NCBI GenBank assembly: GCA_019695095.1
Contig: JAIBAQ010000007.1
Span: 1-64,000, forward strand
Length of the DNA stretch: 64,000 nucleotides
Source of the DNA: Candidatus Hydrogenedentota bacterium
GTDB taxonomy: Bacteria; Hydrogenedentota; Hydrogenedentia; Hydrogenedentales; SLHB01
Direction of reading: 5' to 3'
The notes under the pieces are model-generated. The model had not been told where the DNA came from and made no database searches. It was given only the letters and a program-made list of their open reading frames with translations. How positions within the stretch are numbered: the stretch's first letter is position 1; each line of letters starts with the position of its first letter. The position numbers were made by a program, and so were the translations under genes. Shown piece after piece: positions 1,424 through 10,271 of this stretch.

Positions 1424-2812
1424 TCAGTCGCTTTCTAGTCCGTATTTCTTAAGGCGGTAGCGGAGCGAGCGGGCGGTCAGACCGAGAAGCTCGGCGGCGC
1501 GTTTTTGGGAGTAGCGGGTGTTTTGCAGGGCTTGCTGAATTAGGTTCGTTTCGATTTCTGCGACGTAGGCTTCGAGATCGAGGCCGTCGCTTGGCAATTC
1601 CTTAAGCGCTTCGGCAGGCTCTTGCATGTGCTCGGCAATGTAGGGAGGGAGATCGCCGATTTCGATACGGTCGCCTCGGCAAAGCGCTACAGCACGTTCT
1701 ACGACGTTGGCGAGTTCGCGCACATTGCCTGGCCAATGGAAGCGCTGCAGCGCTTCGGCTGCCTCGGGCGACACTTCAAACGAACCACGCCCCATCTTTT
1801 CCGCCTGCGCCTGAACGAAATGCTTGGTAAGCAGCGGGATGTCGTCGCCGCGTTCGCGCAGTGGCGGCACGGTAATCGGAATAACATTCAGGCGATAGAA
1901 CAAGTCTTCGCGAAACGCGCCTTCTTTCACGCGCTGACGCAGGTCGCGGTTGGTTGCGGACAATACCCGCACGTCAACTTTCTTGCCCGCTGTGCCGCCG
2001 ACGGGAGTGATGATGTTGTTGTCGAGTACGCGCAGCAGTTTGACTTGCAGTGTGAGCGGCATTTCGCCGATTTCGTCGAGGAATAACGTGCCGCCATCTG
2101 CGACCACGAACAGTCCTTCCTTGTCCTCGACCGCTCCCGTGAATGACCCCTTCTTGTGGCCAAACAACTCGCTTTCAAGAAGGCTTTCGGGGAACGCCCC
2201 GCAGTTGACTGCGACGAACGGCTTGAGTTGACGTCCGCTAAGCTGGTGAATCCCGCGCGCGACCAGTTCCTTGCCCGTTCCGCTTTCCCCGTGAATCGCA
2301 ACGATACTAGGGAGGTCCGCCACGCGGCGGATCATTTCGCGGACTTCTTCAATGGCCTTGCTCTTGCCGATGATGTTCTCGAGCCTGCCTCGATGAGCTT
2401 GGTCCTTACGCAAGGCCAAGTTTTCGCGGCGCAAGTTGCGCTGCTCAATGGCGCGCTGCACGAGCATGCGGATTTCTTCGTTCTTGAACGGTTTGAGGAT
2501 ATAGTCGGTTGCGCCGCGTTTCATGGCTTCAATGGCTGTTTCGACCGATCCGTAGGCCGTCATCATGATCGAAGGCGTCATCGGCGCATATTCGTTCAGC
2601 CACGAGAGAAGCGACATGCCGGCCTGGCGGTCGTTTCCCATACGCAGATCGGTAAGCACTAGATCGAAGGACTCCTTCTCGAGAAGTTCCAGCGCTCTTT
2701 CGACATTGGCCGCGCAAGCAACCTCGTAGCCGTCCTTCATCAGAACGATCTCAAGAATCTCGCGCATGCTGGCTTCATCGTCAACGACCAAAACGCGTAT
2801 ATGGCTTGCCAC
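1424..2812 (-). CDS. NtrC-family sigma-54 response regulator (PilR-like)
   Basis: The 462 residues have the complete NtrC layout. The receiver domain holds the acidic pair DD11-12, the phosphoacceptor D55 in LVLTDLRMG, and a lysine in ILKPF. The AAA+ domain has Walker A GESGTGKE (175-182), the sigma-54 contact loop as GSFTGA (222-227; GAFTGA is usual) and a Walker B ending in [11 protein letters not shown] Fis-type helix-turn-helix lies near the C terminus ([20 protein letters not shown]). Such proteins open sigma-54 promoters after phosphorylation. The gene follows the sensor kinase at 2818 with a five-base gap and sits beside pilT and pilB, so a PilR role in pilus gene control is the natural inference. 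No pilin gene is visible in this window. Confidence 0.92.
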
Positions 2813-2817
2813 GGTGA

Positions 2818-4449
2818 TTATCCTTCGCTACGAACTACGGGTAGGCGCACACTCATGGAAGTTCCCCCGCCCGCTCGCGATGAGGCGCGCAGGGTTCCGT
2901 CGTGCGCGGTGACGATGCGCAGGCAAATGGCCAGTCCCATGCCCACACCGGATTCCTTCGTAGTATAGAAAGGCTCGAAAATGCGCGCAACCTTGTCCGG
3001 TTCAATTCCAGGCCCTTCGTCATCGAAGCGAATCTCCACGAAGGCCTGGCCGGGTGTTACCGTAACGGTGAGTGCGCCCTTTTCGTCCATGGCCTCGACG
3101 GCGTTCTTGGCCAGGTTCACGAATACTTGACGGATTTGGGTTCGGTCTCCTGACACCGGGCACATCGTCGGAGGACTGACCACGTCAATTCGCAGGGCGC
3201 CATTTCCCTCGTATTTGCGCCGAATCGAATCGACGATTTCGTCCACAAGGCCGATGACATCGAACGCCTCGCGGCGCATGCGCGGCTTCCTCGCGAAGTC
3301 CAGGAAGTTCGTGACAATGGCGTTGAGCTGGTCCGATTCGCGCCGCGCAATATCCGCCAGACGCGTAGCCAGATGCGGGTTGTCGAGAGACGTAGGTAGT
3401 TCGTCCACCGCGCCACGAATGGCGGCTACCGGATTCCGTATCTCATGCGCCAAACCCGCGGCCAACTCGCCGACCACGGATAGGCGATCCTGGCGTTTGA
3501 GCTCTTCCCTCATCTTCTCAAGTTCGGTTAGATCGCTGAAGGACACAATCATCCCGGTCTTACGCTTGCGCCAGTCGTACATGCGGCTGGTGCTCAGTCC
3601 AAGAAGAATGGTCTTGTCGGGCCCGACCAATCCCGTGTACTCGTAGCGCGTGAAATCACGGTCTAAGCGCAAGGCAGTGACTACAGGGCATTCGTCGCCC
3701 GGAGGTACGCGCAAGACTTCTTCCACGGGTTTCCCAATTGCCTCGTCGGGCTTCAAATTGAGAATGCGTTCGGCGGCAAGGTTAACGAGCAACACGATTC
3801 CCTTGTTGTCCGCGATGAGGAAACCGTTATTCATGTTGTCGAGGATTTCTCGCTGGAATTGTTGCATGCGGTGAATGCGCTGATTCCAGTAACCGCTAAT
3901 CGATGCCGTGAGGAAATAGGCCAGAGTCTGCACCAGGAACCCGTACCAGAGGGCGAATAGATTCTGGTCAATCATCCATTCGCCTCGCGTGTCGTGCATG
4001 ACCGGGGTGTTCGCGACTTGGAGCACAAGCACGAGCATTACCAGGGTCGCGACAGAGGCTACGATCAGGCTCTGAACCAGACCAAGAAGTACGCCTGTTT
4101 CCAGGATGACCACGACAAAGAGGAATGTAAACAGACTCTCAGGGCCGCCGGTGAAACTCACGGTTGCGGCAACGACGCCAAAGTCCACCAGGACTTGAGC
4201 CCACATAATGAGCGGCGCTTGAGGCCTCGCGCGGCGGAGCGCGATCAGGTAGTAGGCGCTGTTGATTAGGCCGAAGAGATAGAAGGCGCCCAGGTATACA
4301 AGATCGTTAGTTTTGCGATCGCCGACGATGAGGGCACCGGACGCGGCTACAAGAAGGAGTGCGACCCGAATCGCCCCAAGCCACCACGTCCCCGTCAAAT
4401 AGCCATCAAACGCTGAGCGTGGGTGACTGTTTGATGAGCGGGTAGTCAC
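2818..4449 (-). CDS. Membrane sensor histidine kinase (PilS-like)
   Basis: The 543 residues start with about six hydrophobic helices (roughly 20-200). A PAS domain follows (from about 205), with phrases such as ILDNMNNGFLIADNKGIV, then the kinase core. The H-box is ELAAGLAHEIRNPVAAIRG. The ATP-binding lobe has N-box NLAKNAVEAM, G1 DDEGPGI and G2 GVGMGLAICLRI. This is the PilS layout: six transmembrane helices, PAS, HisKA and HATPase. The start ATG at 4449 overlaps the pilT stop by four bases (ATGA), which suggests translational coupling. Its likely partner is the sigma-54 activator immediately downstream. The signal sensed is unknown; in PilS systems it is linked to pilin levels in the membrane. 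Confidence 0.9.
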   Translation of the reverse strand: MTTRSSNSHPRSAFDGYLTGTWWLGAIRVALLLVAASGALIVGDRKTNDLVYLGAFYLFGLINSAYYLIALRRARPQAPLIMWAQVLVDFGVVAATVSFTGGPESLFTFLFVVVILETGVLLGLVQSLIVASVATLVMLVLVLQVANTPVMHDTRGEWMIDQNLFALWYGFLVQTLAYFLTASISGYWNQRIHRMQQFQREILDNMNNGFLIADNKGIVLLVNLAAERILNLKPDEAIGKPVEEVLRVPPGDECPVVTALRLDRDFTRYEYTGLVGPDKTILLGLSTSRMYDWRKRKTGMIVSFSDLTELEKMREELKRQDRLSVVGELAAGLAHEIRNPVAAIRGAVDELPTSLDNPHLATRLADIARRESDQLNAIVTNFLDFARKPRMRREAFDVIGLVDEIVDSIRRKYEGNGALRIDVVSPPTMCPVSGDRTQIRQVFVNLAKNAVEAMDEKGALTVTVTPGQAFVEIRFDDEGPGIEPDKVARIFEPFYTTKESGVGMGLAICLRIVTAHDGTLRASSRAGGGTSMSVRLPVVRSEG

Positions 4450-5519
4450 ATCGCCTTTTCCATCAGACGGCGCAGTCCTTCAGGATCGTTGCTGCGCTTG
4501 AACGCCATATCGACGCTGATGATGTTGCGGCGGGCTAGACGGAACAGCGACTGATTCATGGTCATCATGCCTTCGCCGGCGCCGATTTCGATCATCGAAG
4601 GAATCTGTTGGAGCTTGTCCTCGCGGATCAGCGAACGGATAGCGGGGTTGGGCAACATGACCTCAAGCGCGATAGCGCGCCCGACGCCGTTCGCGCGGGG
4701 AATGAGTTGCTGCACGACAATGCCTTCCAATACGAACGACAACTGTGTGCGAATCTGGGATTGCTGGCTGGCGGGAAAGACGTCGACGATACGGTTGATG
4801 GTCTGCAATGCATCGTTCGTATGCAACGTTGCGAATGCCAAGTGACCGGTTTCAGCCGTAGTAATGGCCGCCGCAATGGTTTCCGGGTCGCGCATTTCAC
4901 CGATGAGAATCACGTCGGGGTCTTGCCGCAGCACGTGCTTCAACGCGGCCGCGAACGACTTCGTGTCGGCATTGACTTCGCGTTGATTGATTAGGGCCAT
5001 GTCGTGTTTGTGAAGGTATTCGATGGGGTCTTCGATCGTAATCACGTGAACGGGACGTTCGCGGTTGACCTTATCCACTACCGAAGCCAAGGTCGTTGAT
5101 TTACCGCTACCGGTCGGACCGCAGATGAGCACCAGACCAAGCGGGCGGTACGCGAATTCCGCAACGACACGGGGCAGTCCCAGTTCTTCAAATCCGCGAA
5201 TCTCGAACGGAATGGCGCGGAATGCGGCAACAACCGATCCGCGATCCCGGTAAACGTTCAGGCGAAACCGGCTCAGACCTTCGAGGCCGAACGACATGTC
5301 GCATTCTCGCTCGCTCTCGAAGGTCGTGATCTGCTCTTCATTCATAACGCTGTAGATGAGTTCCTGTGTGTCTTCCGGACGAAGCACCGGATACTCGCTC
5401 ATCTGCGTTAATGCGCCGTCTATGCGCAGCACAGGAGGCACGCCAACCGCGATATGCAAGTCGCTTGCGCCCTGCTGAATCATTTTTGTGAGCAGTTCTT
5501 TGATACTAATGTCGGCCAT
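4446..5519 (-). CDS. pilT: Type IV pilus retraction ATPase PilT
   Basis: The 357 residues match PilT along the whole length. The opening MADISIKELLTKMI is followed by GASDLHIAVGVPPVLRIDG, then Walker A GPTGSGKS (134-141), an Asp box around ITIEDPIEY, Walker B LIGEMRDPET and the histidine box AFATLHTND. The C-terminal PilT signature AIRSLIRED is present (AIRNLIRE is typical). PilT is a hexameric cytoplasmic ATPase that disassembles pili and powers twitching. The gene lies 27 bases after pilB and overlaps the sensor kinase gene. The start at ATG 5519 fits the family N terminus. Confidence 0.95.
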   Translation of the reverse strand: MADISIKELLTKMIQQGASDLHIAVGVPPVLRIDGALTQMSEYPVLRPEDTQELIYSVMNEEQITTFESERECDMSFGLEGLSRFRLNVYRDRGSVVAAFRAIPFEIRGFEELGLPRVVAEFAYRPLGLVLICGPTGSGKSTTLASVVDKVNRERPVHVITIEDPIEYLHKHDMALINQREVNADTKSFAAALKHVLRQDPDVILIGEMRDPETIAAAITTAETGHLAFATLHTNDALQTINRIVDVFPASQQSQIRTQLSFVLEGIVVQQLIPRANGVGRAIALEVMLPNPAIRSLIREDKLQQIPSMIEIGAGEGMMTMNQSLFRLARRNIISVDMAFKRSNDPEGLRRLMEKAM

Positions 5520-5546: not shown

Positions 5547-7268
5547 CTAGTCCGCCGCGCTCACCCGAAGCACTTCTTCAATGGTTGTCAATCCCTCGGC
5601 GGCCTTTTCCAGCGCGTTTTGGCGAAGAGTGCGCATTCCGCATTGCACGGCCACGCGCTTGATTTCGATAGACGGCGCGCGCGACATGATCAGCTCCTGC
5701 AATTCCTGGTAGTTGACCATCGCTTCGATTACCGCGACACGTCCGCGATACCCAGTATCCTTGCATTTGCCGCAACCTCGTCCGCGCACAAAGGTGGGCG
5801 GAGGAGCGCCGTCGGGATGCTTGTATTGGATTCTCTCTAAGACATCTGCCGGTACGCGAATCGGTTCCTTGCAGTCCGGGCACACCTTGCGTACAAGGCG
5901 CTGTGCCGCAGCCAATGCCACGGAAGACTGTACGAGGAACGGCTCCATGTTCATGTCAATGAGCCGCGTGAACACACTGGCCGCGTCATTGGTGTGCAAG
6001 GTGCTCAGCACCAAGTGACCAGTCAAGGCCGCCTTGATCGCGATGTCCGCCGTCTCTTCGTCACGAATTTCTCCGACCATGATAATGTCAGGGTCTTGAC
6101 GCAAAATACTTCGGAGACCGGCGGCAAATGTGAGCCCGATTTCGGAACGGGTTTGCACTTGGTTTACGCCGAACAGTTCGTATTCGACGGGGTCCTCGAC
6201 GGTGATGATGTTCGTGTCGGGCTGATTCAGTTTGTGGAGGGCGCTGTACAGCGTGGTGGTTTTACCGCTACCCGTCGGGCCCGTGAGCAAGATCATGCCA
6301 AACGGACGCGCCAACGCTTCTCCGAAAGCCTGCATTGGTTGCGCGGGAAATCCAAGCTTTTCCAGGTCGAGCGTAAGGCTCGACTTGTCGAGTACGCGCA
6401 TCACGACCTTTTCGCCGTAGTAACATGGGAGAATGGACACGCGAAAATCGATTTCGTGTCCCTTGAACTTGATACGGAAACGACCGTCCTGGGGAAGACG
6501 GTGTTCGGCAATATCCAGTCCGCTCATGATCTTCAGGCGCGAGATGAGCGCAGACTGTACGCTCTTCGGCGGACTCTTTGTCTCTTCCAAAACGCCGTCG
6601 ACGCGGTATCGGACGCGGAGTACCTTTTCAAAAGGTTCGATGTGAATATCGCTTGCCCGGTTCTCCAGACCTTTCGCGAGAATGAGGTTCACGAGTCGAA
6701 TAACCGGCGCATCCTGGGCCTCGGCCTGCACGCTCGCGATGTCCTCGACTTCGTCTTTCTCTTCGACGACGGTCACGCCGTCCTGCTGCTTCTCTCCGAC
6801 AAGTTCGTCGTAGAGTTCCGCGTGCGCTTTGCCTCCGTAATGCTTGTTGATCGTCGCCATCAACTCGGACTGCACCGCGACAACAGGTTCGATTTCGTAA
6901 CTCGTCAACATGCGCAGATCGTCCAGCGCCATGATGTTGAGCGGGTCGGCCATTGCAAGAGTGAGCACGTCTCCGGTCACGCTCACCGGCAACATCTGGT
7001 ATTGGCGGGCAAGCGACTCGGGGACTTCGTTCAGGACTTCCTGCGGAATGTTGTAATTGGCAACACGGATGTGCGGTATTCCGAGCTGCTCGCTCAGCGT
7101 GACGACAAGGTCCTCCTCGCTCAAATAGCCGCGAGAAACCAGGATGGTGGCGAGACTCTGGCCCGTTGAGCGCTGGATACCCAAGCACTCCTGGAGTTGT
7201 TCTTGCGTAACCAGGTCTTGTTCAAGCAGGACATCGCCCAAACGGCGCTTAGCAATCTTCGGTGGCAT
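5547..7268 (-). CDS. pilB: Type IV pilus extension ATPase PilB / GspE family
   Basis: The 573 residues comprise an MshEN (T2SSE_N) domain (about 1-160, starting KRRLGDVLLEQDLVTQEQL) and the secretion ATPase core. The core has RASDIHIEPFE, Walker A GPTGSGKTTT, Walker B IIMVGEIRDEET and VLSTLHTND. Two CxxC pairs (CPDCKEP and CGKCKDTGYRGR) form the zinc-binding tetracysteine site. PilB drives pilus polymerisation, and the MshEN domain is a known cyclic-di-GMP binding module in several homologues. The order pilB-pilT-kinase-activator on one strand forms a pilus motor and control cluster. The stop TAG sits inside the 16-bp perfect palindrome GGCGGACTAGTCCGCC. A type II secretion role is possible, but neighbouring pilT favours pili. 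Confidence 0.92.
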   Translation of the reverse strand: MPPKIAKRRLGDVLLEQDLVTQEQLQECLGIQRSTGQSLATILVSRGYLSEEDLVVTLSEQLGIPHIRVANYNIPQEVLNEVPESLARQYQMLPVSVTGDVLTLAMADPLNIMALDDLRMLTSYEIEPVVAVQSELMATINKHYGGKAHAELYDELVGEKQQDGVTVVEEKDEVEDIASVQAEAQDAPVIRLVNLILAKGLENRASDIHIEPFEKVLRVRYRVDGVLEETKSPPKSVQSALISRLKIMSGLDIAEHRLPQDGRFRIKFKGHEIDFRVSILPCYYGEKVVMRVLDKSSLTLDLEKLGFPAQPMQAFGEALARPFGMILLTGPTGSGKTTTLYSALHKLNQPDTNIITVEDPVEYELFGVNQVQTRSEIGLTFAAGLRSILRQDPDIIMVGEIRDEETADIAIKAALTGHLVLSTLHTNDAASVFTRLIDMNMEPFLVQSSVALAAAQRLVRKVCPDCKEPIRVPADVLERIQYKHPDGAPPPTFVRGRGCGKCKDTGYRGRVAVIEAMVNYQELQELIMSRAPSIEIKRVAVQCGMRTLRQNALEKAAEGLTTIEEVLRVSAAD

Positions 7269-7293: not shown

Positions 7294-7485
7294 CTAGCCC
7301 GGATTTCTCACAAACACACTTCAACCTCTCTTGTGGCCAGTACGTTTGCGAGACTTGCAGCGATGAACAGAGCGGTCCCCGATGACAGAGAGTGTTCGTA
7401 AGAAATCCTCATGGCATAACCTCAAAATCTTGCACGTGAGCATTTTACGCCGCCGCCCAATCGCGCCGGTTTAGAATGCGGCCTA
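7294..7485 (-). repeat. Dispersed MITE-like element, copy A
   Basis: This 192-bp copy fills the gap between pilB and the DnaA-like fusion gene. The plus-strand left end reads CTAGCCCGGATTTCTCAC and the right end reads GAATGCGGCCTA. The last CTA (7483-7485) is the TAG stop of the fusion gene. An internal inverted pair joins GGATTTCTCACAAACAC near the left end with GTGTTCGTAAGAAATCC near the middle, and the right part keeps a degenerate GC-rich hairpin. It aligns along its whole length with the copies at 13118, 44163 and 45764. No ORF is evident inside it. Confidence 0.8.
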
Positions 7486-10188
7486 GGCAGCCTCGCCGAT
7501 GCCCAGATGGCTGAGAATCTCGTTCGCCATATCGCGGCTGATTTCTTGTCCCACCAGTTTCGCATACGCAATGACCTTTCGCAAGGCGCCTGTCATTTTG
7601 CGCACGTCGCTGGTTATTCGGGTCGCGATCAGGCTGAGAATCTCATCAGGCACGGCCATGCGCTGACGTTGCGCAAGGCGCTTGAGAATGGCGAGACGTA
7701 CTTCCATTTCCGGGGCTTTCAGGCGCGCCACGATACCCGACGCGAAGCGGGACACCAGGCGCGGCTGCAAACCAGTAATCTGATCGGGGGCTTTGTCACC
7801 GGCAATAATCACGCGCCGTCCTTCATGGCACAGCGCGGTAAACACGTGGAACAGCTCCTCTTGCGCATCAGCTTTACCGGCCAGGAATTGGATGTCGTCC
7901 ATGATCAGCACGTCCCAATGGCAGAAGCTCTCGCGAAAGTCGTCGAGTGTCCCCTCCTTCAGGGCCTGTGCATGGGTACCGGCGAAATGGCTTGCCGAAA
8001 CGTATCCAACGCGCAGGTCACGATTCTTAACAACGATCTCGTTGCCGATAGCGTTGAGCAAGTGAGTCTTGCCCACACCTACATCGCCAAAAACAAACAG
8101 GGGGGAGAATTCCGCGCTTGCGCGTTCGGCCACGGCGCGCGCTACGGTCACCGTGAAGGTATTGCCCGCTCCGGCCAGGAATTCGTCAAACGTATATCCG
8201 CCCAGCAAGTGGTCCGAATCGAGTGCGGCCCGCACACGTTCGTCGGCTTCCATGCCGAGTCCTGGAGTGTCCAACGCATCCGGCGAAGACATATCCGCCA
8301 TTTCCAGCGATGCGCGTGTGCCAGGGAAAGGCTCAAGATTCGAGACTCGGAAGGCATCGACATTGATCGAGGAAGACTCGCGTTCCTCCTGGGACTTCTG
8401 CATGATGGTCTCGACGGCCTTCAGCGTTTGCGTAACGGAATCCGCGAGTTGCGCCATGCGTGTTTCCTGGTCCGCATACGCAGACCGCACACTATCGCCG
8501 ATTGCGGAAGCGAACACCTCCGGTGACGGAAGCGTTTGCTTACTCTGTTGCGCGCCGATCGAACGCATTTCCTCCGTCAGCGCGGAGAGTCCTTCCTTCA
8601 AGCTTTGGTGAAGCGCTTGGGCCAATACGTCCGAACCGCCGTCGCCGCCACCTTTCTTGCCGGATTCCGCATGTGCCGCCAACAGCGGCAAGACCGCATC
8701 GCGCAGTGCCGACTTCATGCCCTCGCTCAATTGGGACGCGAGTTCGGAAATGTCTGGCTGAGACGCCTGCCGCGCGTTCTCCAGTTCGCTGAGTGTCGTG
8801 AAGAACTTCTGCTGCTCATGAATCAGCAGCCCGACCGCGTCCTGCATCGTAGTGCCAAGACTTGACTGCAACTGGGCCGTCAATTCCTTGAAGTCGGGCA
8901 TCTGTGACGAGAGGCGGTTGGCTTCCGACGCCTGCGCGGCAAGGAGGGGTGTCAGCGCTTCGGCAAGCGCTCCACGCAGTCCCTCATTGATGTGACTCGC
9001 TAACGCACCGAAGTCGGGTTGTGCGGACGAACGCGCACTCTCCGCTTCGGCCAGCGCCGCCATGACTTTCTGTTGTTCATGGATAAGCAACCCTACCGCA
9101 TCTTGCACGCTTCCGCTCAGGCTCGTCTGCAAATGGCCGAGGAGTTCCCTTACATCGGGCGCCGGCGCATCGTTCGTGGGGGTAGGCACAGGTACTGCAG
9201 CGTATGCCGCGGCAAGGCGTCGTTGTTCCTCCACAAGGGGAGAGACAGCATCCTGTAGCGCATCGCGCATGATTGCAGCAAGCATCTTCGGATCAATAGC
9301 GGGAACCGAAGTCGGAGCCGCCACCGGCGCAGCCGCAGGCGATGGCCCCGCGACCGGTTGCTGAGGCGCCACTGGTTTGCGAGCCGGTTCTTCGGGCTTG
9401 GGAGCAGTGGTCGAGGCGGCTTCCTCGATTAGCGCGGCTACCGCAGCGTCAACAGCCTCGTCATCCTTGACTGTCGGAGCGGTTTTCGGTTGGGTGGTCT
9501 TTGCAGGTTCAGGAGGCTTGGGCTCCGCCTTCTTGGGCGCGGCGCCGGTCAACCCAAAACTGGCCGCCGTGACCTCTTGCGCATCAGCGGGCCCTTCATG
9601 GAACAGACGGCGAGACACCGCATCGAAGTGGCGCCAATCGCAGAGAATGGGCTTAATCTTCAGATCCGGACAGTGCTTCCGAACGTTTTCCAGAGCGTCC
9701 ACGTCGAGCGGGTCGACCATGGCCACCGTGAGAATTCGGCCCAGTTTGTCGATGGGGAGAAGGTGATGATTTCGGCACAACTCTTTTGGAACGAACTGAA
9801 ATAACTCGTCCCCCACCTCGTAGTCCATCAAGCTGATGTGCGGAATCTTGCATTGCTTGACGAGGAACGACACCAAGGTGGCTTGGCTGAGCATATTCTG
9901 CTCGACCAGAATTTGGCCCAGAAACCCACCCACAGCCTTCTGATGCTTAAGCGCGTCAGCCAGTTGAGCCGCGCTTATCACCCCCTCTTGGACAAGGAGT
10001 TCACCCAAGCGCGGTGTCCCACCAATGGAGCCCGGCGTACGGCCTGCTGTTGGAGGGGTGTTTTGTGTGGGGGCCGCATCTTCGGGTCTCTGGGGCGCGG
10101 CCGAACCCGGTGACACCTTGGCGGCAGGCGCCGTCTGCGTATCTTCGGGACGTTTGCTGTCTTTTTTCCAACCGAGCATATCTACCAC
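7483..10188 (-). CDS. MshEN - helical repeat - DnaA-type AAA+ fusion protein
   Basis: This 901-residue protein has three parts. Residues about 60-197 are an MshEN/T2SSE_N domain like that of PilB (LGELLVQEGVISAAQL, then HHLLPIDKLGRILTVAMVDP). Residues about 200-600 are a proline/alanine linker and amphipathic repeats, two of which share QDAVGLLIHEQQK. Residues 662-895 are a DnaA AAA+ module: YTFDEFLAGAGNTF, Walker A GDVGVGKTHLLNAIG (701-715), Walker B LIMDDIQFLAGK, the arginine-finger box RLVSRFASG, and sensor II DVRKMTGALRKVIAYA. It ends right after the AAA+ lid, so DnaA domain IV is absent and the protein is unlikely to be the replication initiator. The start is GTG 10188 or ATG 10179; neither has a clear ribosome site. 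Position beside pilB and pilT suggests a pilus-linked regulator, by inference only. The TAG stop coincides with the end of a repeat element. Confidence 0.88.
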   Translation of the reverse strand: MVDMLGWKKDSKRPEDTQTAPAAKVSPGSAAPQRPEDAAPTQNTPPTAGRTPGSIGGTPRLGELLVQEGVISAAQLADALKHQKAVGGFLGQILVEQNMLSQATLVSFLVKQCKIPHISLMDYEVGDELFQFVPKELCRNHHLLPIDKLGRILTVAMVDPLDVDALENVRKHCPDLKIKPILCDWRHFDAVSRRLFHEGPADAQEVTAASFGLTGAAPKKAEPKPPEPAKTTQPKTAPTVKDDEAVDAAVAALIEEAASTTAPKPEEPARKPVAPQQPVAGPSPAAAPVAAPTSVPAIDPKMLAAIMRDALQDAVSPLVEEQRRLAAAYAAVPVPTPTNDAPAPDVRELLGHLQTSLSGSVQDAVGLLIHEQQKVMAALAEAESARSSAQPDFGALASHINEGLRGALAEALTPLLAAQASEANRLSSQMPDFKELTAQLQSSLGTTMQDAVGLLIHEQQKFFTTLSELENARQASQPDISELASQLSEGMKSALRDAVLPLLAAHAESGKKGGGDGGSDVLAQALHQSLKEGLSALTEEMRSIGAQQSKQTLPSPEVFASAIGDSVRSAYADQETRMAQLADSVTQTLKAVETIMQKSQEERESSSINVDAFRVSNLEPFPGTRASLEMADMSSPDALDTPGLGMEADERVRAALDSDHLLGGYTFDEFLAGAGNTFTVTVARAVAERASAEFSPLFVFGDVGVGKTHLLNAIGNEIVVKNRDLRVGYVSASHFAGTHAQALKEGTLDDFRESFCHWDVLIMDDIQFLAGKADAQEELFHVFTALCHEGRRVIIAGDKAPDQITGLQPRLVSRFASGIVARLKAPEMEVRLAILKRLAQRQRMAVPDEILSLIATRITSDVRKMTGALRKVIAYAKLVGQEISRDMANEILSHLGIGEAA

Positions 10189-10241: not shown

Positions 10242-10271
10242 AGTATACCATCGGACGACGGGATTAGTCAA
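10242..10271 (-). promoter_or_regulatory. Sigma-70-type promoter for the MshEN-DnaA fusion gene
   Basis: Read on the minus strand, TTGACT (10271-10266) and TATACT (10247-10242) are separated by 18 bases. The -10 box lies about 54 bases upstream of the GTG start at 10188. Further upstream, TGACAgattttTGTCA forms a short inverted repeat near 10316-10333. The rest of the gap from 10189 to 10505 shows no gene. Confidence 0.55.

Follow-up and report, generated by a model that had tools for sequence, protein, structure and literature searches.

A DnaA-type AAA+ module joined to an MshEN domain is encoded beside pilB across Hydrogenedentota and may serve the pilus extension motor

We identified a protein that joins an MshEN domain, a c-di-GMP-type sensor domain, to the AAA+ engine of DnaA in a 64,000-nucleotide stretch of DNA (the window) from Hydrogenedentota, a phylum about which little is known. 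The gene lies immediately upstream of pilB, and this arrangement was observed in every genome of the phylum in which the two genes share a contig. The fusion has intact ATP and arginine-finger residues, it has lost domain IV and the residues that contact single-stranded DNA (ssDNA), and a separate dnaA exists in the same genome. A DnaA engine that lacks its DNA-binding parts, is joined to a c-di-GMP-type sensor domain and is encoded immediately before pilB probably controls the pilus motor and not DNA. The reading that we prefer, with a little more belief than doubt, is that the fusion is a cofactor dedicated to the PilB extension motor, in which an MshEN sensor or adaptor is coupled to an ATP-driven DnaA-like oligomer that regulates PilB or sets its position, with no involvement of DNA.

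Domain architecture of the fusion

The open reading frame (positions 7483-10188, minus strand) codes for 901 residues. The ATG at 10179 is the probable start, because many relatives match only from residue 4 onward (MLGWKKD...). A sequence-only reading had described an MshEN domain at about residues 60-197, a repetitive helical middle and a complete DnaA AAA+ module that stops right after the lid without domain IV, and each of these features was confirmed. Profile searches matched Pfam MshEN at residues 114-199 (1e-15) and the NCBIfam c-di-GMP_motif family at residues 60-112 (1.3e-16), with scores above the receptor cut-offs of the MshEN and c-di-GMP motif domain profiles (58 versus 23.1 bits and 60.1 versus 38 bits). 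Pfam Bac_DnaA matched residues 665-820 (4.5e-53), the lid runs on to approximately residue 895, and the chain ends directly after it at 901; no domain IV was present in any of the 31 relatives read. A Pfam search found no T2SSE ATPase domain (PF00437) in the fusion.

An AlphaFold2 model placed both the MshEN and AAA+ domains at a pLDDT of approximately 90-97, separated by seven long helices and disordered stretches. The closest PDB folds were DnaA domain III (8bv3 and 2z4r) and MshE with c-di-GMP (5htl). Within the linker, an 82-residue stretch returns 87 residues on, with a self-score of 219, whereas shuffled sequences reached at most 53. In comparison with the window copy, mean identity was 58% for MshEN, 55% for the AAA+ module and only 14% for the linker, so that the two domains are the conserved parts. 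The features of the locus are collected in Table 1. Three promoter-like sites were found in the region, where 1.5 were expected; the site upstream of the fusion gene is weak evidence.

Table 1. Features of the fusion gene and its pilus neighbours in the window
Feature	Position	Strand	Basis or remark
MshEN-DnaA AAA+ fusion gene	7483..10179	(-)	Open reading frame opens at GTG 10188; conserved family start is ATG 10179
MshEN domain, residues 60-200	9589..10011	(-)	Profile matches and model; two 24-residue c-di-GMP-type motifs (60-83, 89-112)
Low-complexity stretch, then helical linker, residues 201-650	8239..9588	(-)	Seven helices of 32-46 residues; poorly conserved
Linker repeat copy 1, residues 344-425	8914..9159	(-)	Self-comparison
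Linker repeat copy 2, residues 431-512	8653..8898	(-)	Self-comparison, 87-residue offset
DnaA domain III (AAA+ core and lid), residues 663-895	7504..8202	(-)	Profiles and model; no domain IV after it
Walker A GDVGVGKTH, residues 701-709	8062..8088	(-)	Residue alignment
Walker B VLIMDDIQF, residues 760-768	7885..7911	(-)	Residue alignment
B-motif loop LAGKADAQ, residues 769-776	7861..7884	(-)	ssDNA-contact positions altered (R245 equivalent is D, S246 equivalent is A); motif definition from PMC8235120
LVSRF with arginine finger R814 (E. coli R285 equivalent)	7744..7758	(-)	Residue alignment
Sensor 2 DVRKM, R863 (E. coli R334 equivalent)	7594..7608	(-)	Residue alignment
Promoter-like site TTGACT-18-TATACT (10/12)	10242..10271	(-)	Just upstream of the fusion gene; consensus match only
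pilB (MshEN and T2SSE extension ATPase)	5547..7268	(-)	Profile matches; 214 bp downstream of the fusion
pilT (retraction ATPase)	4446..5519	(-)	Profile match
pilS-like histidine kinase (6TM_PilS, PAS, HisKA, HATPase)	2818..4449	(-)	Profile matches
pilR-like sigma-54 response regulator	1424..2812	(-)	Profile match

The fusion gene is linked to pilB

The reported position beside pilB and pilT was confirmed, and pilS and pilR are also neighbours. On the strand that carries the fusion and pilB, the window has no terminator-like site in the interval separating the two genes, although this is weak evidence. A search with a fusion-AAA profile identified the fusion-type AAA in 54 of 68 Hydrogenedentota genomes at 309-442 bits, clearly apart from canonical DnaA, which reached no more than 281.5 bits and mostly lay in frames of 450-565 amino acids. 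Orthologues of pilB (identity of 63% or more) were present in 59 of the 68 genomes. Both genes occurred in 53 genomes, on separate contigs in 2 and on the same contig in 51, and in all 51 of the latter the fusion lay immediately upstream of pilB on the same strand with a gap of 19-218 bp; pilT, pilS and pilR usually follow. The sequence-only reading would have been refuted by an assembly error, by a lack of relatives beside pilus genes or by the fusion being the only dnaA of its genome. None of these is the case: the fusion is conserved and adjoins pilB as described, and a canonical dnaA lies on another contig (G000:C8) of the window's genome.

Among pilB-bearing genomes, G049 and G050 lack the whole fusion gene, and in G035 and G027 an MshEN-helix protein remains that has no AAA+ module; in two others, G018 and G019, the locus without AAA is interrupted by contig ends. 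The first four genomes indicate that the fusion is not essential to the pilus. The fusion gene thus tracks pilB closely yet is not indispensable. Gene adjacency is no proof that the fusion and PilB are in physical contact.

ATP and assembly residues are kept and DNA contacts are lost

Residue alignment with DnaA indicated that the ATP and assembly residues of the fusion are intact and that its DNA contacts are lost. The Walker A lysine, the Walker B DD, the arginine finger and the sensor 2 arginine were present in 31 of 31 fusions, and the copies that keep them diverge widely (46-68% identity to the window copy). The box VII arginine is less constant, being R in 21 of 31 fusions and therefore lost in one third. 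Retention of the catalytic residues bears on the possibility that the MshEN domain and helices do the job as a passive scaffold, with the AAA+ module a dispensable add-on and its ATP cycle irrelevant. The two genomes in which MshEN and helices occur without AAA speak for such an arrangement, as do short MshEN-only genes before pilB in Omnitrophota/Auribacterota-type genomes. However, every AAA-bearing copy has kept its catalytic residues across that divergence, and the MshEN tree sets the MshEN-only proteins apart as a group of their own. We consider a purely passive role unlikely, without discarding it.

An effect on replication was also considered, in which the AAA+ module would dock on DnaA-ATP in trans, as Hda does, and alter initiation, coupling c-di-GMP or pilus state to the cell cycle. 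The fusion resembles Hda in being a DnaA-type AAA+ protein without domain IV, its arginine finger is intact, and its nearest folds are DnaA domain III followed by Hda. Its gene context differs, however, and the strict pilus linkage argues against this role; a pattern search of 30 fusions found none with a clamp-binding motif of the QLxLP/F type, and the score against the NCBIfam Hda equivalog, 103 bits, is far below the cut-off of 194.8 bits. We regard a replication regulator as improbable. Nor does the fusion qualify as DnaA itself, with 280.5 bits against an equivalog cut-off of 343.9 bits. It shares approximately 40% identity with DnaA domain III of B. subtilis (8bv3) and T. maritima (2z4r), together with the Walker motifs, arginine finger, sensor 2, lid and predicted fold, but it lacks domains I and IV and has altered ssDNA residues.

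In the ssDNA-binding H and B motifs of E. coli DnaA, V211 and K243 are the better conserved residues and R245 and S246 less so (PMC8235120). The V211 equivalent was V or I in 15 of 15 canonical DnaA proteins, whereas the Hydrogenedentota fusions have A, S, E, G, Q, T and others at this position (I once). The K243 equivalent, K in 15 of 15 canonical proteins, was R in 21 fusions, K in 5, H in 4 and Q in 1. The S246 equivalent was A in all 31 fusions and the R245 equivalent was E or D in 23 of 31. Copies from Abyssobacteria and Fermentibacteria retain more of these residues than the Hydrogenedentota fusions do. DnaA domain III is capable of binding ssDNA (PMC8235120) and type IV pili serve natural transformation (PMC11656802), which leaves room for an AAA+ filament that takes charge of single-stranded DNA arriving at a competence pilus. 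Replacement of the contact residues in Hydrogenedentota makes such a DNA-uptake factor very improbable, although the argument is weaker for the Abyssobacteria and Fermentibacteria copies.

The c-di-GMP motif is better kept in the fusion than in PilB

With the MshEN c-di-GMP motif as defined previously (PMC5013675), the window copy carries the motif residue at 12 of 14 key positions and deviates at two in motif II, where R38 is F and G47 is N. Across the fusions, retention was 31 of 32 for G11, 30 of 32 each for L10, G40 and L58, 27 of 32 for Q61 and 22 of 32 for Q32; the motif-II arginine R38 was replaced by F or Y in 31 of 32. The aromatic residue at this position, with N at G47 in the window copy, may mean that c-di-GMP affinity is lowered or altered. 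The adjoining PilB proteins have kept the motif more poorly (G11 in 14 of 28, G40 in 0 of 28). Better retention in the fusion suggests that c-di-GMP sensing may be located there rather than in PilB, an inference made without binding data. The window's genome has 15 GGDEF loci.

The fusion shares the two 24-residue motifs and the fold with the N-terminal MshEN domain of MshE and PilB (5htl; PMC5013675) and differs from these proteins in its aromatic motif-II residue and in having a DnaA AAA+ output instead of a T2SSE motor ATPase.

Distribution and origin

Restriction of the fusion to Hydrogenedentota was rejected, as copies were found in Abyssobacteria and Fermentibacteria. Three Abyssobacteria-type genomes, one of them labelled Poribacteria, encode a compact MshEN-AAA protein of 435-468 amino acids in which the linker is merely short; in all three genomes pilB-pilT-pilS-pilR follow directly. 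A chimera of two genes created by misassembly can be dismissed, given these compact homologues, the fusion AAA in 54 of 68 phylum genomes and the unbroken adjacency to pilB. In Fermentibacteria, MshEN-AAA genes occur in tandem near PilB (L261:4309-15923 and L262:4940-14341), with MshEN and DnaA AAA modules and long helical repeats; the largest of these proteins, of 1,993 amino acids and also near PilB, has the order MshEN-AAA-helical-AAA with two AAA modules. In 297 genomes of the phylum of G075 there was no match over E 1e-96, and in 285 genomes of the phylum of G072 the matches listed were AAA-only frames of ordinary DnaA length; long-linker fusions could escape the threshold in both searches.

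Trees of the two domains were quick searches with SH-aLRT support only. The AAA tree placed the Hydrogenedentota fusions in one group (100) that joins Abyssobacteria (96), separate from canonical DnaA (99). As to a single origin of all MshEN-AAA fusions, this tree leaves the position of Fermentibacteria unresolved. In the MshEN tree, PilB falls outside a single group (98) that comprises the fusion, the Abyssobacteria copies and MshEN-cNMP paralogues, so the idea that the fusion MshEN is a duplicate of the neighbouring PilB N terminus was not supported. These paralogues, the nearest MshEN relatives of the fusion, belong to the same phylum, with an MshEN domain of the same lineage, but carry a cyclic-nucleotide-binding domain (PF00027) in place of AAA+ (L064:7056-8360, L065:7524-8828, L066:2067-3476 and L067:8001-9350); no pil genes were beside them in the loci read. 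The MshEN-only genes immediately upstream of pilB (L147:3347-3802, L152:7971-8510, L260:2621-3202 and L264:4822-5439) were considered as direct ancestors, which the MshEN tree does not resolve. The window's own genome also encodes an MshEN domain joined to an HDOD domain (L070:8601-10175, G000:C20).

Proposed function

The earlier suggestion of a c-di-GMP-responsive, nucleotide-switched regulator or localizer of the pilus motor is supported as far as sequence can support it: it fits the retention of the catalytic residues and the arginine finger, the loss of DNA contacts and the mostly kept c-di-GMP motif, while the biochemistry remains inferred. In the PilB-cofactor reading, the N-terminal MshEN domain would read c-di-GMP, dock on the related N-terminal domain of PilB, or both. 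The C-terminal AAA+ module would bind ATP, and its arginine finger would join neighbouring copies into a DnaA-like oligomer that is reset by ATP hydrolysis. The long, length-variable helical linker may let this oligomer bring clustered MshEN heads to the motor; the place and time of PilB activity would then be set jointly by c-di-GMP and the ATP state, with no part played by DNA. Binding of c-di-GMP, ATPase activity, ATP-driven oligomerization, contact with PilB and the direction of the effect are all inferences.

The role of the N-terminal MshEN domain of PilB itself is described as poorly understood, and FimX and PilZ are PilB cofactors linked to c-di-GMP (PMC11656802). They do work comparable to that proposed here, as separate proteins that pass the c-di-GMP state to PilB, but with unrelated domains: the fusion has no EAL, GGDEF or PilZ domain and has an ATP-switch AAA+ module. 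By the tests made, the fusion is not DnaA, Hda or a PilB-type ATPase; it is a variant MshEN effector whose output is undescribed in the open literature searched. Open papers on MshEN with DnaA AAA+, DnaA-type ATPases at pili, Hydrogenedentota pili or DnaA output domains yielded nothing relevant, and subscription papers were outside the scope. DnaA is treated as a replication-only protein. In the fusion the ATP switch is intact and the DNA contacts are gone, and this switch, tied to a c-di-GMP-type sensor, is encoded with a pilus motor throughout one phylum and also outside it. Confirmation would show the DnaA oligomerization switch at work as a protein-only timer or scaffold, and the fusion would add an unexpected ATP-dependent layer to PilB control.

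Other DnaA-type AAA+ proteins

Fermentibacteria encode REC-DnaA AAA response regulators of 390-640 amino acids, several per genome (L205-L208 and L212-L216), many without an arginine finger. These proteins suggest a wider reuse of the DnaA switch as a signalling output. It is possible, and we propose only tentatively, that DnaA-type AAA+ modules have been reused in several phyla as general non-DNA outputs, through MshEN and c-di-GMP at type IV pili in Hydrogenedentota, Abyssobacteria and Fermentibacteria and through phosphorylation of receiver domains in Fermentibacteria. If true, this would define a class of DnaA-like assemblies that are gated by signals and have proteins as their targets.

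Further DnaA-type modules were seen in other settings. The window's genome encodes a 787-amino-acid long coiled-coil protein with an N-terminal DnaA-type AAA (L222:6491-8854, G000:C98), and Abyssobacteria have N-terminal DnaA-type AAA on coiled-coil proteins of 1,703-1,830 amino acids with two AAA stretches (L220 and L221). Three genomes of the phylum of G073 encode proteins of 617-666 amino acids in which a DnaA-type AAA precedes a long variable region and a C terminus that is hydrophobic and probably spans the membrane (L256:5729-7588, L257:4380-6233 and L258:1773-3773). Two Abyssobacteria-type genomes carry a second DnaA with domain IV and without domain I (L203:9686-10744 and L204:5476-6549), which adjoins two genes for GspE/PilB-like ATPases.
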